Shown piece after piece: positions 2,166 through 52,272 of a DNA stretch of 64,000 nucleotides. Every line of letters begins with the position of its first letter. Within the stretch, counting starts at the first letter, position 1. The DNA is from a virus. The translations under genes were made by a program, and so were the position numbers. The stretch lies in IMG/VR virus record IMGVR_UViG_3300033143_002694, positions 1-64,000 of that record. One strand, 5' to 3'. The notes under the pieces were generated by a model. That model was not told the origin of the DNA. It was given only the letters and a program-made list of their open reading frames with translations, and made no database searches.

Positions 2166-2253
2166 ACAGAAGGAGCGGTTAGAAAAACAGCATCATCAGA
2201 TCGCACCTTTAATAAAGAAACTTAACCAAATGCTCACAAGGAGAACAACGTAA
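2119..2253 (+). CDS. Small highly basic protein (44 aa)
   Basis: TTG at 2119 follows a good AGGAGAG ribosome-binding site and the frame ends with TAA at 2251-2253, overlapping the next ATG. The product is very basic (MNKKRKRRQKERLEKQHH, then LIKKLNQMLTRRTT) and could bind nucleic acid. It is shorter than the full open frame at 2038-2253, whose upstream ATG has no ribosome-binding site. Confidence 0.45.
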   Translation: MKHPSKSLMNKKRKRRQKERLEKQHHQIAPLIKKLNQMLTRRTT

Positions 2254-3653: not shown

Positions 3654-3663
3654 AAAGGACGAC

Positions 3664-5629: not shown

Positions 5630-5835
5630 AGTATAATAGATGTGCGAACTGCGGGTTTACAATACTTGACTTAGATGGTGGTATTTTCCTTGGGCATACA
5701 CTTGATTATTGGATTGATCTACAGGCTAGGGTGGATGAAATAGATGCCACGAAACTCGTAGAGGAAATAGTTCGTCTAAAGGCTAAGTTGTTCGATTATC
5801 AGGCAATTGAAAAATTATACAAGGACATAAAATGA
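5626..5835 (+). CDS. Small protein with N-terminal CxxC
   Basis: 69 residues starting with ATGA overlap. An N-terminal CANCG motif is followed by an acidic helical region (DEIDATKLVEEIVRLKAKL). It may be a half zinc ribbon or an accessory to the radical SAM enzyme that starts four bases before its end. No family recognised. Confidence 0.6.
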   Translation: MKYNRCANCGFTILDLDGGIFLGHTLDYWIDLQARVDEIDATKLVEEIVRLKAKLFDYQAIEKLYKDIK

Positions 5836-7220
5836 AAATCACATTTATACAGCCTTATTACGAAAACGTATGGGAAGCTTTAGGTATAGGTTACATAATA
5901 GCTTATGCGAAACTTAAGACAGGGGAAAAACATGACTATCGTTTCTTTCATGGAAATTTTGATGACGAGGCTGATATGGTGCTGCAAGGCTCCAAGTCTG
6001 ATATTGTCGCGATTTCGTGTACCAGTCCTACGTATGGAAATGCCATACATTTGGCCAATAGCATTAAGCTACTTAATTCTAAGGTACATATTGTTTTAGG
6101 TGGATGGCACCCAACAGCATTACCGGAAGAAGTTATCAAGGAGTTGAACGTAGACCAAGTAATTGTCGGTGAAGGGGAACTGGCAATGGTCAGAGTGATA
6201 ATGGGTAGCAGGAAACCAATAATAACCGGTGTCAAATTGTCACCAGATGAATTACCATGGCCAGATCGTGAAGCTATAAAGAATGAAAGAACCATCGATC
6301 TCTGTGAGAGTATGAACGGTAAGCGCATCGCCTCGTTCCAGATGAACAGGGGTTGTAAGGTCCACTGTAAGTTTTGCTCAGAAGTGACAATGACAGGACA
6401 GCACCATTGGAAGAAGAATCCTATTCGCACACGGAACTACGATGCGGTGCTAAATGAGATCGCAGGGGTTAGTGCAGATTTCGGAATTAACTATTTCAAG
6501 TTCGTTGATGCAACTTTTGACAAAGACACACAGACAGTAATTGATTTCTGCAAGAGGAAAGTTGAACGTGGTAATACGATGCCATGGGAAGCAAATATCC
6601 ATCCTAATTTCGTACAGAAGGAAGAAGTTTTCGAGTGGCTTGAGAAGGCGAATTGTGAACAGATTAACGTGGGTGTGGAGTCTGGTAGTCCTTATGTACT
6701 TACGGACGTAGGTAAGGGTACATCTCTTGATGGAATAAAGAGGGTGTTCGCATGGGCAAAGAAGTATAATATCAAGAGACGTGCATTTATTCTGATAGGC
6801 ATGCCTGATGAAACCAATGAAGATATTGATTATACGATTGAGTTGCTTGATGAGATAGAGCCAGATGTTGTTGGCTTTACAATCTTGGCACCATACCCCG
6901 GTGGAGATTATTTTAATTTGTCCTTGCATAAAGATGTAGATTGGAGTAAAGTAGATGAGTATTCTAATGACGTGTGGAGTACTGAGAGCTTTAGCAATAT
7001 AGAGCTGAAGAACACGCAGGCTTACCTGATGGGTAGGTATGACCATTTATTATGCGAGAGGCAGGGTGCCGTGAAAGTACACAAGATGATAAAACCTAAG
7101 CCTTGGGGTAGTGGCCGCTTAAAGAAAGGCCCCCTATGTCATGTAGATACATTCGAGAAACTGTCTTACAGGTGGGACAAAGTGACTTGCGAATTTTGTC
7201 TTAAGAAACGAAAAGCTTAA
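5832..7220 (+). CDS. B12-binding-domain radical SAM protein
   Basis: 462 residues. Residues 1-130 look like a cobalamin-binding Rossmann fold (MKITFIQPYYENVWEALGIGYIIAYAK, IVAISCTSPTYGNA, VLGGWHPTALPEEV). The radical SAM core follows with RGCKVHCKFCSE at about 173-184, the CX3CX2C set that holds the 4Fe-4S cluster. INVGVESGS and GMPDETNED are typical downstream motifs. The C-terminus has an extra CEFC. Class B enzymes of this type often methylate unreactive carbons, but many members are unassigned. Its position between aminotransferase and glycosyltransferase genes suggests a sugar or glycan substrate (inference). Confidence 0.85.
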   Translation: MKITFIQPYYENVWEALGIGYIIAYAKLKTGEKHDYRFFHGNFDDEADMVLQGSKSDIVAISCTSPTYGNAIHLANSIKLLNSKVHIVLGGWHPTALPEEVIKELNVDQVIVGEGELAMVRVIMGSRKPIITGVKLSPDELPWPDREAIKNERTIDLCESMNGKRIASFQMNRGCKVHCKFCSEVTMTGQHHWKKNPIRTRNYDAVLNEIAGVSADFGINYFKFVDATFDKDTQTVIDFCKRKVERGNTMPWEANIHPNFVQKEEVFEWLEKANCEQINVGVESGSPYVLTDVGKGTSLDGIKRVFAWAKKYNIKRRAFILIGMPDETNEDIDYTIELLDEIEPDVVGFTILAPYPGGDYFNLSLHKDVDWSKVDEYSNDVWSTESFSNIELKNTQAYLMGRYDHLLCERQGAVKVHKMIKPKPWGSGRLKKGPLCHVDTFEKLSYRWDKVTCEFCLKKRKA

Positions 7221-7225
7221 CATGT

Positions 7226-7300
7226 GGGGATATGGTATAATGGCTATTACATCAGGTTTTGATCCTGATAATCGTGGTTCGATTCCACATGTCCCTACCA
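7226..7300 (+). tRNA. tRNA-Gln (TTG)
   Basis: Cloverleaf read by eye: acceptor GGGGATA/TGTCCCT, anticodon stem TCAGG/CCTGA around loop TTTTGAT (anticodon TTG), T-loop TTCGATT, discriminator A and encoded CCA. The T-stem has four pairs plus one C-A mismatch. It sits alone inside the sugar block, just before the fusion gene. Confidence 0.85.
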
Positions 7301-7319
7301 ATTTAGAAAGGGGAGCATT

Positions 7320-9281
7320 TTGACAAAGAACAGGTTTGCAATGGTTACAAGGGCAGATGGGAATATTAAGGAGTTGACAGCGGTTACCCATCCTATCTTA
7401 ATGGATTATGCCAAGCAGTGGGGGTGTGACTTCATAGTGCTGGACGAGAAAGAAGCGTGGATGATAGATTATGAATTGGCTCATTATCGCATTTTACGTG
7501 TAAGGGAAATACTTGAACACTACGAGAGGGTACTGGTGATAGATTCAGACATTGTGATTATGCCACACTGTCCTAATCCTTTCGAAGTAGTACCAGTAGA
7601 CAAGATAGGAAGTATCTTTGAGGATGTTGGCAGTAGGCAGTCAATGAGGCAGGGAGTTATAATGTCCATACAGGAAAGGTGGGGAGATGTCGGATGGGAA
7701 GAGGGGTATATTAACACTGGATTCTTCGTTGTATCTCGTCAACATTCGAACATTTTTCAGGCGATACAAGGTCAGCATTGGACAGGATTTGGATACGATG
7801 ATGCGCTTATCGGTTACAACATCCACAAGTTCGGACATGAAGTTCATGAGTTGTCGTTCCAGTTTAATCACATGAGTATGTTTTCGGAAGATTGGAATGG
7901 TAATGCAAGCAGATTTAATTCGTATGTCATCCACTACGCAGGACTGGCAAGGTTTCCAGACGACAGGTCAGGGAGAGCACTGACTAATGGCAATGATATG
8001 GCCTGTAGACTTGAGCTCATTGAAAGCGATATCATAAGAATCACAAACGGTCTTATGGCATTCAATAATGTGAAACCTACCCGGTTACAGGGATATGGCA
8101 GTAGGTGTTACCATGCAACGGTAGGGGTGGCAGAGAAGCGTGTAATATTGAAGATACCAAATACCAAAGAATGCCTGAAGAGAGAACTGAAAGTTCTTTC
8201 ATCGAACATACCCGGAATTGTTAAGTGCCTTGATGTTGGCACTCATGACATAGGCACCTTTATGATGCTCGAAGAACTTTTCCCAATACCAGATCAGTTT
8301 CCGGTAGAAGTTATGTTGACATTGGCAACGGATGTTTTAATCGCAATGAGGCAGTTGTATAAAGCAGGTATACCTTGGATATGCAAGAAAGAGCATATCA
8401 TGATGGATGGTGAAGGGCATATCAAGCTTGTTGATTTTGGCGATGATCCGTATGATAGACCAGTACCGTTCTATGGCGACAAGGAAGCAATAATTAAGGA
8501 TGGGGAATGTGATATAAACGGTGAGTATATAGACCGTGAGCTCTTCCCGTGGTCAGGATATTTGGCCGTAATGAAATGGTTCTGTGATAAGAATAACACA
8601 CCTTACAGCATCCTTGGAGCGGCAGAAACGAATATGATTACGTATGAGTATCAGAATCTCAAAGACGTTCATCATCCTATATGGGATGAAGAGTATAATG
8701 ATATCATGAGGACAGAGTCCGAGAAGGATGACCCTAAGTATGGCCAGTTAGTCCCTGCGAATAGAGACTGCAATGATCGTGCGGATATGATCTACGAGAA
8801 CATTGAGCCTTGGATGACGGATGAAACAACATGGCTGGATATCGGTTGTAATGTCGGTTGGTTCTGTTTTGAGTTTGCTGAACACTTCAAGATGACAGGT
8901 GTTGACTTTGATAACGAGAAGATTCAGTTTGCTCAGATGATGGCAGAGGCTAATAACGTAGAAGCTACGTTCCTGAAGTTCGAAGTAGATATCAATACAA
9001 TCGACATGCTGCCAAGGTATGATGTGATCTCAGTATTAAGCATGATGCACTTGCAGTTGGTAAAAGATAAAGACCCGATTGCATTTTGGAAACTGTTCAA
9101 GGCTATTACAAAGAAAGCCAAGAAGATGTTTATCTTTGAATTCCCAAACCATTCAATAGGGCTCTTGAATATACATCCTAAGTATTTCGCAGATAACGTT
9201 AAGATACATGGCGGGTTTGCAAGTGTTGAAGAGATAGGTGTCAGCGATGCAGGAAGGGCGGTGCTGAAATGTCTCAGATAA
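7320..9281 (+). CDS. Three-domain fusion: glycosyltransferase, kinase-like domain, SAM methyltransferase
   Basis: 653 residues from TTG 7320 (AAGGGGA upstream). Residues 1-240 look like a GT-A glycosyltransferase: FAMVTRADGN, then ERVLVIDSDIVIM with the DxD near 74, and EEGYINTGFFVVS. Residues about 255-470 look like a protein/sugar kinase: VILKIPNTKECLKREL (Lys and Glu pair), GIPWICKKEHIMM in the catalytic-loop position and IKLVDFGDD (DFG, about 370). The usual HRD aspartate is not visible, so activity is uncertain. Residues about 495-653 are a methyltransferase (WLDIGCNVGWFCFEF, VDFDNEKIQFAQ). Kinase plus methyltransferase in one chain recalls WbdD, which caps O-antigen with methyl phosphate, though the domain order differs. 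The next gene overlaps by 13 bases. Confidence 0.75.
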   Translation: MTKNRFAMVTRADGNIKELTAVTHPILMDYAKQWGCDFIVLDEKEAWMIDYELAHYRILRVREILEHYERVLVIDSDIVIMPHCPNPFEVVPVDKIGSIFEDVGSRQSMRQGVIMSIQERWGDVGWEEGYINTGFFVVSRQHSNIFQAIQGQHWTGFGYDDALIGYNIHKFGHEVHELSFQFNHMSMFSEDWNGNASRFNSYVIHYAGLARFPDDRSGRALTNGNDMACRLELIESDIIRITNGLMAFNNVKPTRLQGYGSRCYHATVGVAEKRVILKIPNTKECLKRELKVLSSNIPGIVKCLDVGTHDIGTFMMLEELFPIPDQFPVEVMLTLATDVLIAMRQLYKAGIPWICKKEHIMMDGEGHIKLVDFGDDPYDRPVPFYGDKEAIIKDGECDINGEYIDRELFPWSGYLAVMKWFCDKNNTPYSILGAAETNMITYEYQNLKDVHHPIWDEEYNDIMRTESEKDDPKYGQLVPANRDCNDRADMIYENIEPWMTDETTWLDIGCNVGWFCFEFAEHFKMTGVDFDNEKIQFAQMMAEANNVEATFLKFEVDINTIDMLPRYDVISVLSMMHLQLVKDKDPIAFWKLFKAITKKAKKMFIFEFPNHSIGLLNIHPKYFADNVKIHGGFASVEEIGVSDAGRAVLKCLR

Positions 9282-9868
9282 AAACGTTTGGTAGTCACTT
9301 AGTGGATTTTGATTTAATACCAAAAGAGGGTGGTGTCTTTATAGACGCAGGAACATGTCAGGGGAATTTTATCGATGACATATTTAAGCATGTGAAGAAT
9401 CCTCACATATTCGCACTTGAGCCAAATAGGGATAATTACCGGCTCATTAGGGAAAATTATGGTGGGGATATTAATATGCATACCAATGAAGCAGCACTTG
9501 TTGGTAGTGGTGAGCCAAAGACTATGAGGTTTGCACAGTTCGATGGCTTGCCTGAATGGGGTAATGTTTCAGGGCTGTATTCAATCAGGAAGCACAAGAT
9601 GTATGACGTGGATACTACGACCATCCATGAGGTACTGAAAGAGATTCCAATGGATATAATACACCATCTCAAGATGGACATTGAGGGATGTGAACATAAA
9701 GTAATTAAAGATTTAACAAAGGATGATGCGAAGCGTATTCAGCAGATATCCTTAGAGGTTCATAATGGCTTACAGGGCATGCTTGAACATTTAGAGGTAA
9801 TAGGTTATGATGCCAAGTTCGAGAAAGGCGAACTGTACGCTATTACCAGATTGAAAAAAAATAATTAA
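9269..9868 (+). CDS. FkbM-family SAM-dependent methyltransferase
   Basis: 199 residues. FIDAGTCQGNFIDDI (about 24-38) is the SAM-binding glycine loop. ALEPNRDNYRLIREN supplies the acidic ribose contact, and LKMDIEGCEHKVIKDL (about 133-148) is the strongly diagnostic FkbM motif. The family O-methylates sugars, polyketides or other hydroxyl groups, often in glycan clusters. The start overlaps the end of the fusion protein, so the two methyltransferases are probably made together. Confidence 0.85.
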   Translation: MSQIKTFGSHLVDFDLIPKEGGVFIDAGTCQGNFIDDIFKHVKNPHIFALEPNRDNYRLIRENYGGDINMHTNEAALVGSGEPKTMRFAQFDGLPEWGNVSGLYSIRKHKMYDVDTTTIHEVLKEIPMDIIHHLKMDIEGCEHKVIKDLTKDDAKRIQQISLEVHNGLQGMLEHLEVIGYDAKFEKGELYAITRLKKNN

Positions 9869-9937
9869 TCCTCTTTAATAATACTGAGCTCATTGATATG
9901 ATTGTATTATTGCATAACCTTATTAAGGAGTTTGATT

Positions 9938-10855
9938 GTGAACCTACCAGTTGGTAAGAATTTAAGAATTTATGGAGTAAGTTATGGTATTACAGGTGAC
10001 CTCATTATGGGGTTGCCTGTACTTACCTATTTCGAAAAGCTGTATCCTAATAGCTATAAGATTTGGGCAATAGAGAAGAAGGTCGGATACATGGCACCTT
10101 TCTTCCTTAATCACCCATTGATAGACAGGCTCAAGATTACACAGAAGTGGGACACGTTGGGAGAACAGGATAGACGGATAATAGAGGGATGTTATATCGC
10201 ATGTACGCATGAGAACTGGCAACATTCACGCCTTGATTGGTACAACTATGTCGACTGCATAGAAGAGACTGCATTTGTCGCAGGAGTGAAAGACTTAACA
10301 TCGGTACTTAGTACTGACGATATGTATCCGAAGCTTGAGCAGTGGTTTGACATTGGCACTGATGATTTAAATTTCCAGACTTATTCTAATCGTAGCAATG
10401 CAGATATCCGTGTAAAGCACAAGACTATTGCATTGTGGCCATTCGCTACAGCGACAGGGAATATAGCAAGGTCACCATCGATAGCATGGTACACAAGACT
10501 TGTTGAGGATTTAACCTATCAGGGATATGACGTATTTCAGTTTGGGTACAAGAGAGATCAGATAATTGGGCTCACCCACTCACATACACATATGACGTTT
10601 TTCGATCAAGTGAGACTAGCATTGAGTTGTAAGATGTCGATAGGTACAGACAGTGGAAACATGTGGGTTATGGGGGCATACAGCCATCCTGCGGTACACC
10701 TGATGACTAACTGGATGACTAAGCATACAAAGAATTTTGACGCACTATTACCACGTAATAAAAAAGGACATACATGTTTTGCAGAAGGCGGTGCAAACAA
10801 TATTTCAAGAGAGCAAGTAATAACGGCAGTTGACCTTATAATGGGAGGTAAGTAG
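9938..10855 (+). CDS. GT9 (heptosyltransferase-like) glycosyltransferase
   Basis: GTG 9938 is preferred: AAGGAG lies seven bases upstream, while upstream in-frame starts lack a site. The 305 residues have a GT-B shape, with YGVSYGITGDLIMGLPVL near the N-terminus (the GDxxxxxP region of GT9) and the C-terminal donor site SIGTDSGNMWVMGAYSHPAVHLM. GT9 enzymes add ADP-heptose to LPS core, but phage copies may use other donors. A 69-base AT-rich gap precedes it. Its stop overlaps the next GTG start. Confidence 0.7.
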   Translation: MNLPVGKNLRIYGVSYGITGDLIMGLPVLTYFEKLYPNSYKIWAIEKKVGYMAPFFLNHPLIDRLKITQKWDTLGEQDRRIIEGCYIACTHENWQHSRLDWYNYVDCIEETAFVAGVKDLTSVLSTDDMYPKLEQWFDIGTDDLNFQTYSNRSNADIRVKHKTIALWPFATATGNIARSPSIAWYTRLVEDLTYQGYDVFQFGYKRDQIIGLTHSHTHMTFFDQVRLALSCKMSIGTDSGNMWVMGAYSHPAVHLMTNWMTKHTKNFDALLPRNKKGHTCFAEGGANNISREQVITAVDLIMGGK

Positions 10856-11808
10856 TGAGATTTCTTATAACTGGAATTAATGGATTTGTTGGACCACACC
10901 TAGCTGCAGAGATAAAAAGGCAGGGACATACAGCGGTAGGAATGTCTCATACAGGAGTTGAAGACTTGGCTGACTGTGAAGTGTTGAGTGGTGATATAAG
11001 GGACCAGATGGAGATTGATGATATTATGCGTGACCGTACCTTTGACGGGGTATTCCATTTAGCATCAAAGACACATCCACCAACATCATTCAAAGACCCG
11101 GTGGGCTTCTTTGAGACAAACGCAATGGGTGCTGTTTATTTAGCAGATACAATCGTGGCGCATCAGCCAGATACTTGGTTAATGAATTGCTCAACATGTG
11201 AAGTATACGGTATACACCCAGATGGTACCCGTATAAGCGAAGATACTCCAACGCTGGCATCTAATCCTTATTCAGTCTCTAAGCTTGCCGCAGACTTATA
11301 CATTAAAGAGAGAAGCGAGAATGGGCTGTTGAAATCTTTCACCACTAGAGCCTTCTCGCATACAGGGCCGGGTAGACCTATGAGTTACTCTATATCTTCT
11401 GACGCTTTCCAGATCGCAAAGATCATTAAGGGTAAGCAGAACGCAGAAATAAGTGTAGGTAATCTTAGCTCAAAACGTGTAGTCATGGATGTGAGAGACG
11501 TTGTCGCGGTGTATTGGCAGTTGATGGAGAGCTACATAACCCTACCTTCATGGAAGCATAAAAATGGAGAGGTGTGGAATATAGGTGGTGACGATCTACA
11601 CGACATGGGATATTACCTTCAATTAATGCTGGATATATTCAATCTGGAAGCAGAGACTAAGGTGTGCGATAAGTTGTACAGGAAGTTTGACATACCTGTT
11701 CAGTATCCTGATAGCACAAAAATAAGATCGCAATTAGGATGGGACCCGAAATACAATATCACTCGCACATTATCAGACTTGGTTAACTATTGGTTAGAAA
11801 GGGTATAA
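10855..11808 (+). CDS. Extended SDR: NDP-sugar epimerase/4,6-dehydratase
   Basis: 317 residues from GTG 10855 (GGGAGG upstream). The NAD(P) loop is ITGINGFVGPHLA (about 5-17). Further motifs are GDIRD, VFHLASKTHPPTS, NCSTCEVYG and YSVSK near residue 140 with the catalytic Tyr and Lys. TRAFSHTGPGRP resembles GDP-mannose 4,6-dehydratase and its relatives. It likely makes the keto or epimerised nucleotide sugar used by the aminotransferase and glycosyltransferases nearby (inference). Overlaps both neighbours by one base. Confidence 0.85.
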   Translation: MRFLITGINGFVGPHLAAEIKRQGHTAVGMSHTGVEDLADCEVLSGDIRDQMEIDDIMRDRTFDGVFHLASKTHPPTSFKDPVGFFETNAMGAVYLADTIVAHQPDTWLMNCSTCEVYGIHPDGTRISEDTPTLASNPYSVSKLAADLYIKERSENGLLKSFTTRAFSHTGPGRPMSYSISSDAFQIAKIIKGKQNAEISVGNLSSKRVVMDVRDVVAVYWQLMESYITLPSWKHKNGEVWNIGGDDLHDMGYYLQLMLDIFNLEAETKVCDKLYRKFDIPVQYPDSTKIRSQLGWDPKYNITRTLSDLVNYWLERV

Positions 11809-12863
11809 TGGGGGTAGAAGACGCTGACTCACACAAATTGGGGTTACACCCACATAAGGTATCGAGATGGCTCCAAGGAGTGTCGGTGCCGTTTCATGCC
11901 GAAATAGGTATTACGAATAGATGTAATCATAAATGTAGTTTCTGTACACTTGACTGGATTACTCATGGTAGCACGGATCTCAACCCATCCATATTATTCA
12001 AGGCATTGCAGGAATTAAAATACATGGGTGTCAAGTCAATATATCTTGCAGGTGAAGGCGAGCCAACAATGCACCCGGATTTCACTGCGATTGTCAATCA
12101 GATCAAGCATATGGATATGCAAGTAGCAGTTTCTACTAATGGGCAACGGTTCACAGACAGTGTAGCAGATCGCACATTAAAGGACATATCGTGGATAAGG
12201 TTCAGTTTAGAGACCATTGATCCATCTACTTACCAGAGAATACATGGGGTTGGGTATAACTGTTTGCGGAAGGTGACTGAGAATATCCAAGACGCTGTAT
12301 CTATAAAGAAAGAGCGCAACCTTTCTGTAGACATAGGTGTCCAGATTATCCTCACAGAAGAAACCGCATTAACGTTAAATGACACAGTTGAGTATCTCAA
12401 GGGGATCGGTGTAGACAATGTCCAGATAAAACCCTGTCACACGCACCCAAATAGCTCACATCAAGAGCAGATGGACTTAAGCATGTATGACCATGTTAAG
12501 GTCGAGATGGAGGACTACGTAGACGATAAGTTCAATGTCATCGTAAGGACCCTGAGTATGAATCGATTACTGGAGCCTCGCACGTATTCCCGCTGTCACG
12601 GCTTCGATTTCTATGTTCTTATAAATGCAAACGGTGAGGTGGTTCCATGTAACGTTTTCTACCATAAACCTGAGTTTGTGTATGGAAATATAAACATGCA
12701 ATCAATTGGCGAGATATGGAGATCGGAAAGAAGGCAGTATATCATAAAGAGTATAGAATGCTCAAAATTTTCACATTGTGGTGATTACAGATGCAGGCTG
12801 GATGTTATGAATAGGCATCTTGACCGAGTAAAGCACCCAGAAAGGAATGACGTGTTCATATGA
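11808..12863 (+). CDS. Radical SAM protein with SPASM-like C-terminal cysteines
   Basis: ATG 11808 overlaps the upstream stop (TAATG); length 351 aa. EIGITNRCNHKCSFCTLDW holds CX3CX2C at about 40-47, followed by GVKSIYLAGEGEPTMHPDF. The C-terminal region has cysteines in RCHGFDFYVLINANGEVVPCN and in CSKFSHCGDYRC, as expected for an auxiliary Fe-S cluster domain (SPASM). GEGEPT and the ANGEV.PC motif are family hallmarks. SPASM enzymes modify peptides or sugars; BtrN-like members oxidise sugar alcohols. Substrate unknown. Confidence 0.85.
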   Translation: MGVEDADSHKLGLHPHKVSRWLQGVSVPFHAEIGITNRCNHKCSFCTLDWITHGSTDLNPSILFKALQELKYMGVKSIYLAGEGEPTMHPDFTAIVNQIKHMDMQVAVSTNGQRFTDSVADRTLKDISWIRFSLETIDPSTYQRIHGVGYNCLRKVTENIQDAVSIKKERNLSVDIGVQIILTEETALTLNDTVEYLKGIGVDNVQIKPCHTHPNSSHQEQMDLSMYDHVKVEMEDYVDDKFNVIVRTLSMNRLLEPRTYSRCHGFDFYVLINANGEVVPCNVFYHKPEFVYGNINMQSIGEIWRSERRQYIIKSIECSKFSHCGDYRCRLDVMNRHLDRVKHPERNDVFI

Positions 12864-13021
12864 GTGAGTGTAACCATATAGAGGTCCGCAAGTTAAGTTC
12901 TTTTTTTCCATGGATACCACCGGATGAAGATAAGGACGTTAGGTGTTTTAATAAAACCGAGGCAGATCAATGCCGTGTATGCAAGGGAATAATAAAGGAG
13001 AGTTATGATACGACAGATTGA
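12860..13021 (+). CDS. Small four-cysteine protein (53 aa)
   Basis: ATG 12860 overlaps the previous stop as ATGA and the frame ends at TGA 13019-13021, overlapping the next gene by 17 bases. CNH near the start, a central C, and CRVCKG near residue 38-43 suggest one zinc site. Similar short zinc proteins are scattered through this genome. Function unknown. Confidence 0.55.
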   Translation: MSECNHIEVRKLSSFFPWIPPDEDKDVRCFNKTEADQCRVCKGIIKESYDTTD

Positions 13022-14006
13022 AAAGATGATTGAGTATAAAAACCGGGGAGGTGCTTACGATCAGTCAAGAAGGGCAAGCAAGCACATAACGCAGATAAAT
13101 ACCGAAGACAAGATCCTGCTTGGCGCGTCACAAGGCATTGGTAATGCTATACTTACGACACCACTGATTAAAGCGTTAACCGATATGCACCTGCATGTTG
13201 ATATAATTTGCTCCGGTACCGGCATGATGAATGGTGCAGAGTTTGTATTCGATGGAATGGAAAACGTAAAAGTTTTACCAGAAGAAGGGATCGAAGGCAG
13301 GCGTTATCTGTTGGGTATCCAGACAATGTGGCCGTATCCGGGGATTGAGAAATACGTGTCTCAGATCAGGTTTGCTCCAAATATTAACAAGGTCTGGGAA
13401 GACGGTATTCTTGCGCATGAGGTAGATATTAATATGTCAGTAGCTCGTTCTCTTAAGTTTGCAGGTGCTACTCCGGATCTATATTGCAATTACAGTGAGA
13501 TACCTGATTTCAACAAGCATCGCGACAAGAAGAATATCGGTATACATATTTGTCGGAAATATAATCATCAGTTCATGGCCAACCGTAGGCTATCAGATCC
13601 CTTGGCTATTGGTAGGGAGTTGATCAAGCAGGGGCATAGAGTGTTTATCATAGGACGTGAAGACGCTGTACAGTCTGAATATAGACGTGCGCACTCCGAC
13701 TTTGTGTATTGTTTAGGCCAGCCTCTTCCAGAGGTAGCAGGATTAATAAGGGAATTGGACTGCATAGTCAATGAGGATTCCGGTATAATGCATATTACAG
13801 CAGCAATGAAAACTCCACAGGTGGCAATTTTTGGACCAACAACCGATGTTAAAAACTCGCCATGGTCAGACGTTGCGAAGGTTGTCAGGAAAGATATCCA
13901 GTGCGCACCATGTCAATATACGGAGCGTGCGACTAATTGTTGTAAGAACATTTGCATGGACATAGACGCATCCTATATAGTAAAACATGTTAATGAGTTA
14001 CTTTAA
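13005..14006 (+). CDS. GT9 ADP-heptose:LPS-type glycosyltransferase
   Basis: 333 residues. ILLGASQGIGNAILTTPLIKAL (about 37-58) is the N-terminal GT9 signature. The C-terminal donor half has LDCIVNEDSGIMHITAAMKTPQVAIFGPTT (about 249-278), and the tail with several cysteines (CAPCQYTERATNCCKNIC) is common in heptosyltransferase-like enzymes. It is the second GT9 protein of the block and clearer than the first. It implies work on an LPS-like or other heptose-bearing glycan, consistent with a Gram-negative host (inference). Confidence 0.85.
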   Translation: MIRQIEKMIEYKNRGGAYDQSRRASKHITQINTEDKILLGASQGIGNAILTTPLIKALTDMHLHVDIICSGTGMMNGAEFVFDGMENVKVLPEEGIEGRRYLLGIQTMWPYPGIEKYVSQIRFAPNINKVWEDGILAHEVDINMSVARSLKFAGATPDLYCNYSEIPDFNKHRDKKNIGIHICRKYNHQFMANRRLSDPLAIGRELIKQGHRVFIIGREDAVQSEYRRAHSDFVYCLGQPLPEVAGLIRELDCIVNEDSGIMHITAAMKTPQVAIFGPTTDVKNSPWSDVAKVVRKDIQCAPCQYTERATNCCKNICMDIDASYIVKHVNELL

Positions 14007-43760: not shown

Positions 43761-43833
43761 GCCTGAGTAGCCGAACGGCATAGGCAGCGGACTTAAAATC
43801 CGTAATCTGTAGGTTCGACTCCTACCTCGGGCA
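43761..43833 (+). tRNA. tRNA-Leu (TAA) with short variable loop
   Basis: Acceptor GCCTGAG/CTCGGGC, discriminator A, no encoded CCA. Anticodon arm GCGGA-CTTAAAA-TCCGT (anticodon TAA), T-arm GTAGG-TTCGACT-CCTAC. The variable region is only five bases (AATCT), whereas bacterial leucine tRNAs normally have a long variable arm. Confidence 0.8.
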
Positions 43834-43853
43834 TTTATTTTTCAAGGAAAGCT

Positions 43854-44132
43854 ATGAACACAGCCGAATACGATTCACAAATGAAGGAGATCAGAGATGA
43901 TTATTTAGTCAAGTGTAAGAAGTTGAGGATTCAGTTTGTGGCAAGTAACACAACGGTTAGGGTAGGCGATGTTATCAAGGATCATAGTGGCTCTATCGTA
44001 GTTGAGAAAACAGGAGTTAATGTTCCACTTACAGGATACCCTGAGCCAAAGTTTTATGGTATCGAATTGAAGAAGGATGGCACACCAAGGAAAGATAAGG
44101 CGAAGCGTTGGTTATTTGGATGTAACATGTAA
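43854..44132 (+). CDS. Hypothetical protein between tRNAs
   Basis: 92 residues after CAAGGAA. Charged N-terminal helix, then a beta-rich part (SNTTVRVGDVIKDHSGSIVVEKTGVNVPL) and FYGIELKKDGTPRKDKAKRWLFG at the end. The fold resembles small beta-barrels found in several phages, but I assign no function. Confidence 0.6.
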   Translation: MNTAEYDSQMKEIRDDYLVKCKKLRIQFVASNTTVRVGDVIKDHSGSIVVEKTGVNVPLTGYPEPKFYGIELKKDGTPRKDKAKRWLFGCNM

Positions 44133-44167
44133 TAAGCATCTGGCAGGTCACTCCATTATTTTATTTT

Positions 44168-44242
44168 GCGTGTATAGTTTAATTGGGAAAACCGGAGGCT
44201 TCCAACCTCAAATTGCGGGTTCGATTCCTGCTACACGCTCCA
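44168..44242 (+). tRNA. tRNA-Gly (TCC)
   Basis: Perfect acceptor GCGTGTA/TACACGC, anticodon arm GAGG-CTTCCAA-CCTC (anticodon TCC), T-arm GCGGG-TTCGATT-CCTGC, discriminator T and encoded CCA. Confidence 0.9.
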
Positions 44243-44262
44243 CGTTTCAACAAGGAGTTTCG

Positions 44263-44526
44263 ATGAGAATAGGTACTTTTGATAAGATATGCGGTACAAG
44301 TTTGTTGCTTGGCTTTATAGTTGTCTGCCTTTTGGGTACGGGCTGGATAATGAACTGCGTAGCGTTCGCAAAGCTTGACTTCAAGTCACCAGTAAAGGCA
44401 GAGATAGTAAGGGGAATTGGGCTATTTCCTCCGTTTGGCGCAGTACTAGGGTGGGTAGATATCGATGATACGCCACGTGAAACCAGTCGGCCTGTAGAAA
44501 TGCTTGAAATCGTACCGGTAAAATAG
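44263..44526 (+). CDS. Small membrane protein (87 aa)
   Basis: ATG 44263 after AAGGAG. One or two hydrophobic segments: TSLLLGFIVVCLLGTGWIMN (about 12-31) and a shorter one with FPPFGAVLGWVDID. Probably inner-membrane. Neighbours are tRNAs and a band-7-like protein. Confidence 0.6.
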   Translation: MRIGTFDKICGTSLLLGFIVVCLLGTGWIMNCVAFAKLDFKSPVKAEIVRGIGLFPPFGAVLGWVDIDDTPRETSRPVEMLEIVPVK

Positions 44527-44564
44527 TTTATTTTTTGTTTAACGTTTTGAATAAGGGGATTATT

Positions 44565-44963
44565 TTGGACAAAGAACTTAAGTCGCGGTGTTGGGTACTT
44601 GGTGTTTTAATAGCAGTGATTCTTGCCATTGTCATAACAAGCATGGCATGTTTACCGAAGTACAGGGTGTACAAGCAGAATCTGGCAGGACAGGCAACAT
44701 TGAGAGAAGCAGAGTGGACCAAGAAAATTAACATTGAGTCTGCGAAGGCAAAGAAAGTATCAGCTACATTACTGGCAGACGCTGAAGTGGAAAGAGCAAA
44801 GGGTGTAGCGAAGGCCAATAAGATAATTGGTGACAGTTTAAAGAATAACGAAGGGTATTTGCAGTACCTATTTATTGACAGCCTGAGTGAGACGAATAAC
44901 AAGATCATATATATTCCGACTGAGGCGAATATGCCGATACTTGAAGCAGGACGAAGAGATTAA
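44565..44963 (+). CDS. Band-7/SPFH-like membrane-anchored protein, short
   Basis: TTG 44565 follows AAGGGG; 132 residues. One N-terminal membrane helix (VLGVLIAVILAIVITSMACL, about 9-30) then a helix-rich part that matches the end of SPFH/prohibitin proteins: ADAEVERAKGVAKANKIIG, EGYLQYLFIDSL, NKIIYIPTEANMPILEAGR. The usual SPFH core of about 150 residues is missing, so the gene keeps only the coiled-coil tail. Phage copies may shape or mark membrane domains. Confidence 0.6.
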   Translation: MDKELKSRCWVLGVLIAVILAIVITSMACLPKYRVYKQNLAGQATLREAEWTKKINIESAKAKKVSATLLADAEVERAKGVAKANKIIGDSLKNNEGYLQYLFIDSLSETNNKIIYIPTEANMPILEAGRRD

Positions 44964-44964
44964 T

Positions 44965-45050
44965 TCGAGATAGCATAATTGGTAATGCAACTGGCTGTTA
45001 ACCAGTGACGATGCTTGTCAATGCAGGTTCGACCCCTGCTCTCGGAGCCA
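44965..45050 (+). tRNA. tRNA-Asn (GTT) with long variable arm
   Basis: Acceptor TTCGAGA/TCTCGGA, anticodon arm ACTGG-CTGTTAA-CCAGT (anticodon GTT), T-arm GCAGG-TTCGACC-CCTGC, G73, encoded CCA. Between anticodon stem and T-stem lie 16 bases, including GAC-GATGCTT-GTC, a small class II type variable stem-loop not expected for Asn. Confidence 0.8.
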
Positions 45051-45095
45051 TACGTAAGCGGTGCGGGGACGCTATATAAAACGGTGCCATAATAC

Positions 45096-45281
45096 TTAAG
45101 CTCTGTTTTGGTATCCGATCTCTTGCAAGACAACAAGGCCGTAAGGATATCCTTCCTTCAGAACTCGAATTTCTTGAGGAGGTGGCTTATAACCATCTAC
45201 GGCATCCATAATGGCAGTTTTCATTTGGGGGTTCTGCATGAACCAAAATAAAAAACCTCCATCCAATATTCGCATGACCAA
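45096..45281 (-). CDS. Doubtful leftward ORF within the tRNA cluster
   Basis: 61 residues in the 315-base space between two tRNAs: MVMRILDGGFLFWFMQNPQMKTAIMDAVDGYKPPPQEIRVLKEGYPYG. Composition looks protein-like, but it has no Shine-Dalgarno and opposes all its neighbours. Nothing else convincing fills this stretch. Confidence 0.25.
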   Translation of the reverse strand: MVMRILDGGFLFWFMQNPQMKTAIMDAVDGYKPPPQEIRVLKEGYPYGLVVLQEIGYQNRA

Positions 45282-45364
45282 ACTTTTACATGCAGGGAGA
45301 TTTTAGAAACTTCTCTAACGGAAATCGCATCTGGGTCTCTCTGCATGTTATTAAAACTATACTT

Positions 45365-45454
45365 GGAAGATTGACAGAGCTTGGTAATGTGCCAGTTTGC
45401 TAAACTGAGGCTAGGGTTACACTTACGGAGGTTCAAATCCTCCATCTTCCGCCA
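45365..45454 (+). tRNA. tRNA-Ser (GCT)
   Basis: Acceptor GGAAGAT/ATCTTCC, anticodon arm CAGT-TTGCTAA-ACTG (anticodon GCT), long variable arm, T-arm GGAGG-TTCAAAT-CCTCC, G73 and CCA. A TATACT box lies just upstream. Confidence 0.85.
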
Positions 45455-45501
45455 TAAGCGAGAACGGCCATGTAACTCGGTAAAAACTAGGCTACCAAAT
45501 T

Positions 45502-45732
45502 ATGTACTATATACAACACAAATACTATACTTGGCTTAAGTGGGAGAGATGGGGAACTTATCCATCTAAAGAAAAATCTGAAAAAGCATTTGACAAACTG
45601 AAAGTGCTTGTTATACTAAAACCGATAACCATGAATGGTGTTGATTTTCACGACATTTATAAGGGTTATGATTATAGACTTACAGAAGATGCGCCAATGG
45701 TGGCAAGCAGTCTTGAAAACTGTGGGGTGTAA
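45502..45732 (+). CDS. Small ORF ending inside a tRNA gene
   Basis: 76 residues, aromatic and basic (MYYIQHKYYTWLKWERWGTYPSKEKSEKAFDKLK). Its last 16 codons run into the tRNA-Ser(TGA) gene, so the C-terminus is tRNA sequence, as if the tRNA had inserted into and truncated a gene. The ribosome-binding site is weak. Real but truncated, or spurious. Confidence 0.4.
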   Translation: MYYIQHKYYTWLKWERWGTYPSKEKSEKAFDKLKVLVILKPITMNGVDFHDIYKGYDYRLTEDAPMVASSLENCGV

Positions 45733-45767
45733 AAGCCTAGAGGGTTCGATTCCCTTGTCTTCTGCCA
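45684..45767 (+). tRNA. tRNA-Ser (TGA)
   Basis: Acceptor AGAAGAT/GTCTTCT with a G-T pair, anticodon arm GCAGT-CTTGAAA-ACTGT (anticodon TGA), long variable arm, T-loop TTCGATT, discriminator G, encoded CCA. It overlaps the end of the upstream small ORF. Confidence 0.85.
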
Positions 45768-45777
45768 ATTTTAACAT

Positions 45778-45855
45778 CAGTGGGTAGGTCAGTCTGGTTA
45801 GACCGCTCGCCTTGGACGCGAGAGATCGGAGGTTCGAATCCTCCCCCACTGACCA
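45778..45855 (+). tRNA. tRNA-Pro (TGG)
   Basis: Acceptor CAGTGGG/CCCACTG (C1-G72) with A73, D-stem GGTC/GACC, anticodon arm CTCGC-CTTGGAC-GCGAG (anticodon TGG), T-arm GGAGG-TTCGAAT-CCTCC, encoded CCA. Confidence 0.9.
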
Positions 45856-45876
45856 TTTTATGAAAGGGGTTTCATA

Positions 45877-47064
45877 ATGAGAGTATTACCGCCAGTACCA
45901 TCCGAGCAGAATTTACCAATCAAATCATGGTGTCCTGTCGTAGACGAGAAGACATTCAGGCAGGCAATCAACATATCAAACCTACCATTCACATTCAAAC
46001 ATATAGCACTAATGCCAGATGCCCACATGGGCTACGGTATGCCTATTGGTGGAGTATTAGCTACCAAGGGGTATATAGTACCGAACGCTGTTGGTGTTGA
46101 TATAGGGTGTGGTATGGCTGCAGTAAGACTGCCATTGAAGGAAGCTCCAGATGAAATGACTCTCAAGTATTTGATGAACATAATCAGAAGAGACATACCA
46201 TTCGGATTCAAGAAGCACTATAAGGCAAAGCCAATAACAAAGATGCCAAAGCCACATGAACCACAGTTTTTACAGCACAGGGTTGCAGGTACAGAGAATA
46301 TCAACGCAAGGAAGTCTCTAGGTACCCTTGGTGGCGGTAACCACTTCATAGAGATACAGATGGGCTCTGATGGGTATATCTGGATAATGATTCACAGTGG
46401 CTCTAGAAATTTAGGCAAACAGGTTGCTGATTATTACAACAAAGTGGCTATTGTCAAGAACAAAGAGTATCACTCTAAGGTACCAATTAAACATGAACTG
46501 GCATTTCTTCCAATAGATAGTGTTGATGGCAAGAACTACATCGATGAGATGAACTATTGCGTTGAGTTTGCGCGATTGAACAGGAAGGAAATGATGTCAA
46601 GGGTTGTCGGTGCATTCTATACCCTGTTGGATATCAAAGACGATCATGACCCGGTTATCGACGTGGTTCATAACTATGCACGTATGGAAAGCCACTATGG
46701 TAATAATGTCATGGTCCATCGTAAAGGTGCAACTTCTGCAAAGCTTGGCGAAACAGGAATCATTCCCGGATCACAAGGCTCAATGAGCTATATTGTCAAG
46801 GGCAAGGGGAATTCTGAGTCATTCACTTCATGTAGTCATGGAGCAGGTAGAAAGATGGGAAGGAAAGAAGCGAGTAAGAGACTTAATCTACAGGACGAAA
46901 TAGATAACCTTAATGACAAGGGTATTATCCATTCTATCCGTGTTGAGAGCGACCTAGAAGAGGCTACAGGGGCATACAAAGACATCGAAGAGGTAATGGA
47001 TCACCAGATGGACTTAGTATCTCCTATGATACAGCTACGACCTTTAGCAGTACTGAAAGGATAA
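45877..47064 (+). CDS. rtcB: RtcB-type RNA ligase
   Basis: 395 residues after AAAGGGG. Diagnostic motifs: PDAHMGYGMPIGGVLATKGYIVPNAVGVDIGCGMAA (about 48-81, metal-binding Asp and Cys), LGTLGGGNHFIEIQ, IHSGSRNLGK, and TSCSHGAGRKMGR (about 318-330), whose histidine forms the GMP adduct. RtcB seals 2',3'-cyclic phosphate or 3'-phosphate RNA to 5'-OH ends, the products of anticodon nucleases. It lies directly downstream of five tRNAs, so it probably repairs cleaved tRNAs during infection. Slightly shorter than typical RtcB (about 400-480). Confidence 0.92.
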   Translation: MRVLPPVPSEQNLPIKSWCPVVDEKTFRQAINISNLPFTFKHIALMPDAHMGYGMPIGGVLATKGYIVPNAVGVDIGCGMAAVRLPLKEAPDEMTLKYLMNIIRRDIPFGFKKHYKAKPITKMPKPHEPQFLQHRVAGTENINARKSLGTLGGGNHFIEIQMGSDGYIWIMIHSGSRNLGKQVADYYNKVAIVKNKEYHSKVPIKHELAFLPIDSVDGKNYIDEMNYCVEFARLNRKEMMSRVVGAFYTLLDIKDDHDPVIDVVHNYARMESHYGNNVMVHRKGATSAKLGETGIIPGSQGSMSYIVKGKGNSESFTSCSHGAGRKMGRKEASKRLNLQDEIDNLNDKGIIHSIRVESDLEEATGAYKDIEEVMDHQMDLVSPMIQLRPLAVLKG

Positions 47065-47069
47065 GAACC

Positions 47070-47906
47070 GTGAAGATACAGGCGACTTTAAATCTATCAG
47101 AAGGATTCGGAAAGTATGGAAGAACTATACCCTTTAAGACTTCAAAATACCCTGCAGGTGAAGTGTATATCAAGACAGAAGTACCTCTTGGTACCAGCAC
47201 AGTAAGAATTAATAGCAGGTGCAGGAGCAGTGACCATCTCGTGATCATACTCATGGCGGTTGATACGCTCCAGAGACAGGGTGTAAAATACATCGAGTTA
47301 TTCATACCATACTTCCCATACTCAAGGCAGGACAGAGCCTGTGACTACGGAGAGGCTTTCTCGTTGAAGGTTATAGCGTGGATGTTAAGCCATACCCTTG
47401 ATAAAGTAATAACGTATGACGTTCATAGCGATGTTGCATCTTCTATTCTGGACCTGAGACTGGAGAATCGTAACAATCACATAGAGGTCATAGATTTCGT
47501 AAAATGCCTTAATGTCAAGGGTAAGAAGTTGGCGTTAATTGTTCCAGATGCAGGTGCCTTAAAAAAATCTCAGAAATTATTTGACAATACAGGAATTTTT
47601 GATACACTTGTTATATGTCATAAGAAACGTGTCTACGGGAAAGTCCAATATATGGATATCCCTGACAATCTCAATGGCATGGAAGCAGTCGTTGTTGATG
47701 ATATATGTGACGGTGGAGCTACTTTCCTTGCATTATCAGAGAAGCTTGACCAGATAGATGTTGGCGCAAAGCACTTGTTCGTAAGTCATGGCATATTTTC
47801 TGCGGGTATGGAGAAGCTGAGAGAATGCTACAAGACAATCGGAACGACAAACAGTATGCGGTGGATGGCACCAACAGATGTCAAGCGTTTTAATTTAGAT
47901 TATTAA
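47070..47906 (+). CDS. Prs-like enzyme, probable Adps of NARP1
   Basis: 278 residues from GTG 47070. PRPP-synthetase family motifs: FIPYFPYSRQDRACDYGEAFSLKVIAWML (about 76-104), DVHSDVA and the phosphoribosyl-binding loop VVVDDICDGGATF (about 208-220). Cellular Prs makes PRPP; in the phage NARP1 pathway the related Adps adds pyrophosphate to ADP-ribose. Its pairing with a NAMPT-like gene supports the second role. The intervening HNH gene separates the pair. Sequence alone does not prove substrate choice. Confidence 0.8.
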   Translation: MKIQATLNLSEGFGKYGRTIPFKTSKYPAGEVYIKTEVPLGTSTVRINSRCRSSDHLVIILMAVDTLQRQGVKYIELFIPYFPYSRQDRACDYGEAFSLKVIAWMLSHTLDKVITYDVHSDVASSILDLRLENRNNHIEVIDFVKCLNVKGKKLALIVPDAGALKKSQKLFDNTGIFDTLVICHKKRVYGKVQYMDIPDNLNGMEAVVVDDICDGGATFLALSEKLDQIDVGAKHLFVSHGIFSAGMEKLRECYKTIGTTNSMRWMAPTDVKRFNLDY

Positions 47907-47926
47907 ACATTAGAGAAGGAGGAGAT

Positions 47927-48388
47927 ATGTCGAAGTACCTAAGAAGTGCTCCAGTTAAGAAACTCGGATTTGTGTGGAGAAACATGAAATATAGATGTTT
48001 CAGGAAAGAGAATAAGGATTACAAGTATTACGGTGGCAAGGGTATCACGGTATGCAAGGAGTGGCTGGAGTTTGAAAACTTCTTAGCATGGGCATTGAGA
48101 GCAGGGTATGATGATAGTCTTACTATTGACAGGTTGGACTCCAACAAAGACTATGAACCGGAGAACTGTGTTTGGCATACACGTGGTGCAAATTCAAGGA
48201 GAGCTACTGAGAAGTTTACAATAGCGGAGTCCGAGGAAATACGTGACCTGTATGCATGTGGTAGATTTACTTACAAGGACCTTGGAGAGGCTTATGGCTG
48301 TACTGGCGTGTGTATCTGGGCCGCAGTTAACCGCAAAACTTATAGAAAAGGGGATGACCGTGGAGATATCACCGTTACATCAAATTGA
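47927..48388 (+). CDS. HNH-type (homing-like) endonuclease
   Basis: 153 residues after GGAGGAG. The central pattern YKYYGGKGITVCKEWLEFENFLAWALRAGYDDSLTIDRLDSNKDYEPENCVW is the HNH-variant common in phage free-standing endonucleases (YGGxGI.V...W, IDRxDxxxxYxPxNCxW). The C-terminal half is helical, probably a DNA-binding helix-turn-helix (FTYKDLGEAYGCTGVCIWAAVN). It sits between two genes that are usually adjacent and its end overlaps the next gene by 35 bases, as expected for a selfish insertion. Confidence 0.75.
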   Translation: MSKYLRSAPVKKLGFVWRNMKYRCFRKENKDYKYYGGKGITVCKEWLEFENFLAWALRAGYDDSLTIDRLDSNKDYEPENCVWHTRGANSRRATEKFTIAESEEIRDLYACGRFTYKDLGEAYGCTGVCIWAAVNRKTYRKGDDRGDITVTSN

Positions 48389-50081
48389 TTTCTACAAATC
48401 AGGGCATATGTATCAGTACCCTGACAATACAGAGTTAGTGTTCAGCAACCTTACACCAAGGGCAAGTAGGATGAAAGAGGTAGACAGGGTAGTATTTTTC
48501 ATGTTGCAGTATTTCATCAAAGAGTACTTGATGGACCAGTGGCAGAGGAATTTCTTCGACAAGGATTTGACTGGAATTATCCTAGAGTTTCAAGACCGCA
48601 TGGATAATGCCCTTGGAGCAGGTAAGGTGAAGGCTCACCACATCGAAGAACTTCACCACTTGGGATACTTACCATTGGAGATCAGGGCAGTGCCAGAGGG
48701 TAGCAGGGTTAACCTGAGAGTGCCGATGATGGTGATGTGGAATACTAATCCTGATTTCGGATGGCTCACAAACTACCTTGAAACTATCATGAGTACCACG
48801 GTATGGGGTGGGTGTACTTCTGCTACAATGGCGAATGAGTACAGAGGTATAATGGAACAATACGCAGAGAAAACTGGAGGCGATAAAGCTTTCATTGATT
48901 TCCAAGGACATGACTTTTCTTGTCGTGGTATGTTTGGATTCGAAGCGGCTTGTATGTCTGGAGCAGGGCATTTGTTATCATTCAAAGGAACCGATACAGT
49001 AGGTGCAGTTGACTTTATTGAGAAGTACTACAAGGTGTGGTCTGGCGATAATGAGGTAGATGATGAGTTAATCGGATGCTCAGTACCTGCAACCGAACAT
49101 AGTGTCATGTGTCTTGGTGGTGATGGTGATGATGAATACGATACTATCAAGAGATTGATAACAGAGACATACCCAACAGGCCCTATAAGTATAGTATGTG
49201 ATACGTGGGACTTCTTCAAGGTACTCACGGAGATCCTTCCGAGATTAAAGGATATTATCATGGCAAGGGATGGCAAAGTAATTATCAGGCCAGATTCAGG
49301 TGACCCTGCTGATATAATTTGCGGTACAGCAAAGATTGTAGATTACGGAGATGAGGTTTCTAGCCTAGGAGAGTTAAAGCTTTGGGCTAAAGATGATATC
49401 ACTGACAAGGTCAACGAAGATACACCGCATGGAGAGTGTGGGACATTTGAAGAGTTCGGGCTTTTTAGGTTTAATGGTTTAATTTACAAGATCGAAGTAG
49501 CGATGGAGTGGAATAGGCATGACAAACAATACTACTACATGGAAGAGAGTCATGTAAGTGGCTGTGAAGTTGTCAATCTTACACCAGAGCAGAAGGGTGC
49601 GGTAGAGTTATTATGGGAAACTTTTGGCGGTACAACAACCGAGAAAGGATACAAACAACTTGACAGTCATATCGGACTTATTTACGGAGACAGTATTACT
49701 TTGGATAGATGTAGAGACATATGTTCCAGACTATCTGACAAAGGTTTCGCAAGCACTAATGTGGTTTTTGGGATAGGTTCTTACACCTACACTTACACGA
49801 CCAGAGATGTATTTGGATTTGCAGTAAAGGCTACTTATGCAGAGATCGATGGCAAGCCTGTTGAGATATATAAGAAGCCGAAAACGGACGATGGAACGAA
49901 GAATAGTGCCAAAGGGCTGACTGCAGTTTACATGTCTCAGGATGGTAATTTCCATATGCAAGATCAGGCAACGTGGGATCATGTCAAAAACTGCTCATTA
50001 GAATTAGTATACAGAGATGGAGCACTGATAAGAAATACAGACATCTCTGAAATCAGAGAAACTTTAAGGAGACAAAGATGA
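48354..50081 (+). CDS. NAMPT-like enzyme, probable Namat of NARP1
   Basis: 575 residues. ATG 48354 is chosen because AAGGGG stands just before it; earlier in-frame starts lie in the HNH gene. NAMPT motifs: the start IDFYKSGHMYQYPDNTELVFSNLTPR, FIDFQGHDFSCRGMFGFEAACMSGAGHLLSFKGTDTVGAV (about 182-221) and VIIRPDSGDPADII (about 309-322), which bind the phosphoribosyl and nicotinamide groups. Standard NAMPT makes NMN; in NARP1, Namat joins ADP-ribose pyrophosphate to nicotinamide and restores NAD+ directly. Length matches the family (about 490-600). Paired with the Prs-like gene. Confidence 0.85.
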   Translation: MTVEISPLHQIDFYKSGHMYQYPDNTELVFSNLTPRASRMKEVDRVVFFMLQYFIKEYLMDQWQRNFFDKDLTGIILEFQDRMDNALGAGKVKAHHIEELHHLGYLPLEIRAVPEGSRVNLRVPMMVMWNTNPDFGWLTNYLETIMSTTVWGGCTSATMANEYRGIMEQYAEKTGGDKAFIDFQGHDFSCRGMFGFEAACMSGAGHLLSFKGTDTVGAVDFIEKYYKVWSGDNEVDDELIGCSVPATEHSVMCLGGDGDDEYDTIKRLITETYPTGPISIVCDTWDFFKVLTEILPRLKDIIMARDGKVIIRPDSGDPADIICGTAKIVDYGDEVSSLGELKLWAKDDITDKVNEDTPHGECGTFEEFGLFRFNGLIYKIEVAMEWNRHDKQYYYMEESHVSGCEVVNLTPEQKGAVELLWETFGGTTTEKGYKQLDSHIGLIYGDSITLDRCRDICSRLSDKGFASTNVVFGIGSYTYTYTTRDVFGFAVKATYAEIDGKPVEIYKKPKTDDGTKNSAKGLTAVYMSQDGNFHMQDQATWDHVKNCSLELVYRDGALIRNTDISEIRETLRRQR

Positions 50082-51309: not shown

Positions 51310-52272
51310 ATGACAGAAGGAACTATTGACATTACTACTTCATGGCATGCCTACCCCAAATCACTGGCGGTAGGGCATCGCTACCTAAGAGACATCTTTT
51401 TAGATGAAGTTTCCATAACAGAAAAGATCGACGGTTCGCAATTCTCATTTGGGATCTTTAAAGGTGTTATCAAGTGCAAGTCTAAGAACCAGCATATTAA
51501 TATGGATGCAGGTGTGTCTGATCTTGGTATGTTTCGTAAGGCTGTTGAGACTGTGAGGGAGATAGCAGACATGCTGACTGATGGATATACCTATCGCGCA
51601 GAGTACCTGCAGAAGCCAAAGCATAACGTGCTGGCATATGACAGGGTGCCTGATAGAAATCTTATCATCTTTGACATTGCAAGAGGGCATGAGGACTACT
51701 TGGGTCACAAAGAGATGGAAGCCGAGTCTAGTTATATTGGGTTGGAGTGCGTACCTCTGATATACTGCGGTAAGATTGTGGATGCAGACTCATTCGTCCA
51801 GTTCCTTGAACGTGATTCTATTCTTGGTGGCCAGAAGATAGAGGGAGTTGTTGCTAAGAATTATGATCGTTTCGGGAACGATGGCAAGATACTGATGGCA
51901 AAGTATGTATCTCCGAAGTTCAAAGAGATTCATAACAAGGACTACAAAGAGAAGAATCCTTCAGGTCTGGATATACTAGGTGTCCTTGGAGCGAAGTATC
52001 ACAGTGAAGCACGATTTGCAAAAGCAGTACAGCACTTGAGGGAAGAGGGCCTTCTTATAGATGAGCCAAAAGATATCGGTATCCTGATTGAAGAGGTAAG
52101 GAGAGATATCTTGGAAGAGTGTGGTGCAGACATCATGAACGATTTGTTTAAGTGGGCTTGGAAGCGATTGGGAAAATCTGTGATAGCAGGTTTCCCTGAG
52201 TGGTACAAGAATTTATTACTAGAAAACGCTTTAGAAGAGGAGGATGACTTTGACCAGTTCGACCAAGAATGA
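51310..52272 (+). CDS. T4 Rnl2-like RNA ligase
   Basis: 320 residues. Nucleotidyl-transfer motif I is TEKIDGSQFSFG (KxDGS, lysine about 39), then YRAEYLQKPKHN, LIIFDI, IEGVVAKNY (about 175-184) and MAKYV, the successive motifs of Rnl2-type ATP-dependent RNA ligases that seal nicks in RNA duplexes. The C-terminal half is helical. Overlaps RecT by 29 bases. Together with RtcB and the tRNAs it suggests two routes of RNA repair. Confidence 0.85.
   Translation: MTEGTIDITTSWHAYPKSLAVGHRYLRDIFLDEVSITEKIDGSQFSFGIFKGVIKCKSKNQHINMDAGVSDLGMFRKAVETVREIADMLTDGYTYRAEYLQKPKHNVLAYDRVPDRNLIIFDIARGHEDYLGHKEMEAESSYIGLECVPLIYCGKIVDADSFVQFLERDSILGGQKIEGVVAKNYDRFGNDGKILMAKYVSPKFKEIHNKDYKEKNPSGLDILGVLGAKYHSEARFAKAVQHLREEGLLIDEPKDIGILIEEVRRDILEECGADIMNDLFKWAWKRLGKSVIAGFPEWYKNLLLENALEEEDDFDQFDQE

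Follow-up and report, generated by a model that had tools for sequence, protein, structure and literature searches.

Introduction

NARP1 is a two-gene system in which Adps transfers pyrophosphate from ATP onto ADP-ribose to give ADPR-PP and Namat combines ADPR-PP with nicotinamide to give NAD+, reactions that together reverse the NAD+ depletion with which bacteria halt infection through TIR-, SIR2- or SEFIR-type defence enzymes. In the system of Bacillus phage SPbetaL1 (Adps WIT26982, Namat WIT26983; 9W5W and 9W5X) the two genes abut on one strand, Adps before Namat. A selectivity clamp has been defined from the structure of the SPbetaL1 Namat-NAD+ complex: it consists of loop residue Arg40 and the helix motif GSX-Phi-X-Phi-X-Phi-TRD, the aromatic third and seventh residues of which stack against the adenine (PMC12774641); there is no solved Adps structure on which the ADP-ribose contacts could be mapped (PMC12774641). 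The NARP1 operon of phage DyoEdafos holds an extra gene, RyDEP, a cADPR glycosidase that feeds NARP1 (PMC13232231). The free-standing homing endonucleases of T4 and ICP1 lie beside or between functional genes and vary among relatives (PMC2988022, PMC10448857).

The locus described here is, convincingly, a new example of the known NARP1 system and not a new system. Its genes and their relatives indicate that it is very probably the NARP1 operon of a tailed, podovirus-like phage, with a homing-type HNH gene inserted between adps and namat. A counter-defence operon would in this case host both a homing-type nuclease and a labile Namat insert.

A NARP1-type operon in an uncultivated tailed phage

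The window, the whole stretch of 64,000 nucleotides that we analysed, belongs to a linear IMG/VR virus record of 68,188 bases. PHROG matches in the window include terminase, portal/head-tail adaptor, major head protein, RecE/RecT-like recombination proteins, primase-helicase, RtcB and RNA ligase; this set marks the source as a tailed phage, and the family of the head-tail adaptor suggests a podovirus-like particle. Megablast of the 40–64 kb region found no match to a named phage.

RtcB is followed by three plus-strand genes, which encode Prs-like, HNH and NAMPT-like proteins; all three open reading frames are where the preliminary description had placed them. The adps and namat genes thus share one strand with the HNH gene alone between them. 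Among the 130 viral loci having adps first, 75 have a gap of 60 bases or less between adps and namat. The promoter scan returned 11 promoter-like sites where 8.9 were expected, and the terminator scan 7 terminator-like sites where 2.0 were expected; neither gene junction has a terminator-like site on the plus strand. PADLOC models matched neither the Adps/Namat pair nor the six other window genes tested, and no macro-domain, Nudix or RyR-type ADP-ribose gene was present among the window proteins scanned with Pfam, a subset of the window's genes.

On either side of the NARP1 operon (43761–47064 and 51310–52272) are six tRNA genes in all, RtcB and an RNA ligase, possibly a tRNA-repair set. A glycan-type cluster occupies the opposite end of the window (2253–14006), with glycosyltransferases, a DegT aminotransferase, a GDP-mannose dehydratase-like epimerase, a radical SAM protein and an FkbM methyltransferase.

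The NAMPT-like protein carries the Namat selectivity clamp

The NAMPT-fold protein (48360–50081, plus strand, GTG start, 573 aa) matches PHROG 448 with E=7e-188 and the SPbetaL1 Namat chain 9w5x with E=1e-161; the family assignments of the pair and of the HNH protein lie far beyond chance. It is 52% identical to SPbetaL1 Namat, with which it shares the predicted fold, the whole clamp and the catalytic set. The clamp-helix motif reads GSYTYTYTTRD (residues 473–483, nucleotides 49776–49808, plus strand; aligned to SPbetaL1 Namat 390–400), with aromatics at positions 3 and 7, so that the clamp comprises Arg37, Tyr475, Tyr479 and the TRD, Arg37 aligning with the SPbetaL1 stacking residue Arg40. 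Of the 20 residues listed as NAD+ contacts in SPbetaL1 Namat (PMC12774641), 18 are identical in the window protein, and the other two differ by conservative changes, A362S and F392Y. The catalytic core is kept as well: Phe186, Asp212, His247, Arg310 and Asp312 correspond to Phe189, Asp215, the His of ATEHS, Arg306 and Asp308.

The AF2 model (pLDDT 90.7) finds its best fold match in the Namat-NAD+ complex 9w5w (Z 47.7, 1.5 Å over 472 residues, 52% identity), followed by HdNadV (44%) and human NAMPT (32%). HdNadV (9ke8, 9keo) and human NAMPT share the fold and catalytic core of the window protein but are without the adenine-binding clamp aromatics, the HdNadV helix reading GAQTYQRNTRD. Because an enzyme with 44% identity lacks these aromatics, general similarity does not account for the clamp motif. 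A tree of 161 sequences sets 153 Namats, those of the window and SPbetaL1 among them, apart from the eight NAMPTs that have no clamp, with a support of 0.75 and a branch length of 1.65. We conclude that the NAMPT-like protein is, by its sequence, a Namat, predicted to make NAD+ from ADPR-PP and nicotinamide.

These features bear on whether the pair might instead be an ordinary salvage pair, that is, a PRPP synthase acting on ribose-5-phosphate together with an NMN-making NAMPT, NAD+ then being produced through a host NMN adenylyltransferase. General databases do label the two proteins ribose-phosphate pyrophosphokinase and nicotinate/nicotinamide phosphoribosyltransferase, and SPbetaL1 Namat itself keeps a PRPP-dependent NMN activity (PMC12774641). 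The full clamp of the window Namat argues against salvage, as does the placement of both proteins in clades separate from the ordinary enzymes. The Prs-like partner, considered next, supplies the remaining evidence on both sides.

The Prs-like protein groups with Adps

The Prs-fold gene (47070–47906, plus strand, GTG start, 278 aa) encodes a predicted ADP-ribose pyrophosphate synthetase that matches PHROG 619 with E=3e-57. It scores 264.9 bits against an Adps profile, built from Namat-partnered Prs-like proteins with the window's phage clade left out, and 122.2 bits against a profile of the Prs-like outgroup, ten PRPP-synthase-like sequences comprising E. coli Prs, eight Prs from other bacterial genomes and the paralogue L285. 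In the tree it falls in a clade with SPbetaL1 Adps (support 0.97), apart from the ten outgroup sequences; apart from that of SPbetaL1, our trees contain no NARP1 that has been tested experimentally, the DyoEdafos and Bas63 sequences having been left out.

Sixteen positions separate Namat-partnered Prs-like proteins from the Prs-like outgroups. The window protein has the Adps residue at 14 of them and the Prs residue at one; the corresponding counts of Adps residues are 11 for SPbetaL1 Adps and 0 for E. coli Prs. Outgroup residues are thus replaced at 15 of the 16 positions, 14 times by the Adps residue, which speaks against ordinary salvage. Where canonical Prs proteins have the motifs HAxQxQGFF and DTGGT/DTAGT, the window protein has HSDVASSIL and DDICDGGATF, with DGGAT in the place of DTGGT. 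The catalytic flexible loop reads KKRVYGK as against K-x-RD--TGEI; it is shorter than in most Adps and retains the Lys and Arg (K185 and R187). The AF2 model (pLDDT 91.5) has PRPP synthetases as its best PDB fold matches, which is expected because no Adps structure exists.

Some Adps-like proteins are, on the other hand, paired with clamp-less NAMPT, which speaks for salvage. Eight such proteins are nested in the Adps clade, and Adps-type residues at the discriminating positions occur in them too. Clade membership alone is therefore no proof of ADP-ribose use, and it is the Namat partner and the clade together that support the assignment to Adps. The operons with clamp-less NAMPT (GVGGILRNHSRD) are L204, L216, L240, L249, L262, L264, L269 and L060, and their hosts include Pedobacter, Mucilaginibacter, a Paceibacterota MAG and a 192-kb phage.

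Taking both partners together, we regard an ordinary salvage pair as highly improbable. The Prs-like protein is by sequence an Adps, predicted to make ADPR-PP from ADP-ribose and ATP, and with Namat it would counteract NAD+-depleting host defences. The preliminary description had read the pair as Adps and Namat of NARP1 and had named active sites like those of ordinary Prs and NAMPT as the observation that would overturn this; what we found is the full Namat clamp, Adps-type residues and grouping within the Adps clade, and the reading is upheld.

The window Adps is just 24% identical to the tested SPbetaL1 Adps. NARP1 would reach into an uncultivated podovirus-like lineage whose Adps is very divergent, and such an enzyme would be a useful test of which residues set ADP-ribose specificity. 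A scan of viral contigs with this Adps alone returned no relative; relatives were found when an alignment was used. Adps at 35–44% identity to the window's occur in many Bacteroidota chromosomes (Larkinella, Aquimarina, Siphonobacter, Kordia and others; L196–L274), nearer to it than SPbetaL1 Adps is, and several of these adjoin a Namat with the signature.

An HNH gene between adps and namat

The middle gene (47927–48388, plus strand, ATG start, 153 aa) encodes an HNH endonuclease matching the phage HNH families PHROG 3377 (E=3e-34) and PHROG 374; its C-terminal segment is HTH-like, with weak profile matches. Its end overlaps the start of namat. The overlap of 35 bases given in the preliminary description presupposes an ATG at 48354, and while the overlap itself stands, its length is 29 bases if namat begins at GTG 48360, most likely the true start. 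We prefer this codon because the Shine-Dalgarno-like sequence AAAAGGGG (48346–48353, plus strand), which lies within the HNH coding sequence, abuts ATG 48354 yet suits the spacing to the GTG, and because the Namats of two more distant operons, L036 and L037, begin at the aligned residue (MNIFPPHMIDFYK and MNLSPAHMIDFYK, against MEISPLHQIDFYK in the window). The nearest relative, L012, has AAAGGAG at the same place.

L012 (uncultivated phage IMGVR_UViG_3300037246_000474) has the same order, RtcB-Adps-HNH-Namat, with an HNH protein 81%, a Namat 86% and an Adps 62% identical to those of the window. A third member of the lineage, L195, is a 4.7-kb contig binned with a Gammaproteobacteria MAG; it is syntenic with the window phage and has a partial HNH gene after Adps at the contig end. 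L036 and L037 come from other phages, outside the window's lineage. There the adps stop codon is followed by a short SD and the ATG of namat, and an HNH of the window family is absent from both contigs. The HNH gene is thus present in L012 and L195 and absent from L036 and L037, with the flanking genes intact. In the SPbetaL1 operon, too, the genes abut without an HNH.

L012 carries a second HNH gene of the same family (8911–9423, 43% identical) between exonuclease and RNA ligase genes, a feature that the window phage lacks: its exonuclease and RNA ligase genes are only 3 bases apart, and the site is empty. The stop codons of this gene and of the window HNH gene each fall within an ATTGAT (Ile-Asp) stretch of the gene that follows, and the two insertions overlap their downstream genes by 29 bases (window) and 17 bases (L012). 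A homing-type gene that tends to insert immediately before start codons would leave such a pattern, and the window HNH gene looks like a free-standing homing endonuclease gene that has entered between the end of adps and the start of namat. Like the enzymes of T4 and ICP1 it sits between functional genes and varies among relatives, although unlike theirs its cleavage and transfer are presumed from sequence.

We propose that a free-standing HNH gene, carrying its own ribosome-binding site, inserted precisely where the adps stop codon is followed by the start codon of namat. Its last codons overlap the first namat codons out of frame. Translation of namat would now begin from the SD within the HNH coding sequence and is probably coupled to that of the HNH gene; such coupling is the likely effect of the HNH gene on namat.

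Might the HNH gene instead have a function in the operon, perhaps as a defence or regulatory gene that was recruited and now governs how Namat is translated? The L012 copy stands at the same place with 81% identity, an intact motif and a conserved overlap, a partial copy follows Adps in L195, and function-matched genes such as RyDEP in phage DyoEdafos do occur within other NARP1 operons (PMC13232231). The window and DyoEdafos operons are alike in holding an extra gene, but RyDEP feeds NARP1 whereas the HNH nuclease is without a metabolic link and probably has no metabolic part. Other phages have operons without the HNH gene, the same family occurs at an unrelated gene start in L012, and no further HNH of the family lies between Adps and Namat in the fetched loci (L195, whose contig ends before Namat, is not counted). 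We therefore consider a working role quite unlikely. The HNH-free junctions in two other phages and the second HNH gene in L012 favour a selfish insertion that left both partners intact, as had been suggested.

The insertion is not, however, a recent event in the window phage. No HNH-free member was found among the three sampled members of the window's own lineage, and because all three carry the gene the insertion predates their divergence.

Genes of other kinds also occur at this junction: in Bacillus phage KLEB27-3 (L003:426–4719) Adps and Namat are separated by two genes whose annotation is glucosamine N-acyltransferase.

An additional segment in Namat

Approximately residues 324–405 of the window Namat (49329–49574, plus strand) are extra relative to the Namat of L012, which is otherwise 86% identical and is without this segment of about 80 residues; the 491-aa SPbetaL1 Namat is without it as well. 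The insert is alpha/beta in the model, carries the motif WNRHDKQYYY and lies, in the sequence, between the ribose-binding RPDSGDP and the AMP-phosphate-binding GDS/GDA loops. It has no Pfam match above the cut-off. Homologues that share a WNR(Y/H)DKQYYY-like motif are present in 38 records of named phages, and among the matches listed the annotated ones are in NAMPT/Namat genes or in unnamed genes.

Long inserts are found in many viral contigs, whereas all 20 bacterial Namats measured have only a linker of 22–24 residues. The long form changes at least 29 times on the core tree, against an average of 51 with shuffled labels, and the insert is a labile module. It is doubtful, though conceivable, that it is a phage-specific interchangeable module that adjusts which substrate is chosen or helps the enzyme to evade a host inhibitor; if it were, phage NARP1 would have swappable modules that bacterial NARP1 lacks.

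In the Namat of L037 (4840–7257; phage contig IMGVR_3300003886_000013) the catalytic motif appears to be split, as RPD|SGDP, by an intein some 310 residues long, with weak matches to Intein_splicing (E=3e-4), Hint_2 and LAGLIDADG_3, all below the Pfam cut-offs.
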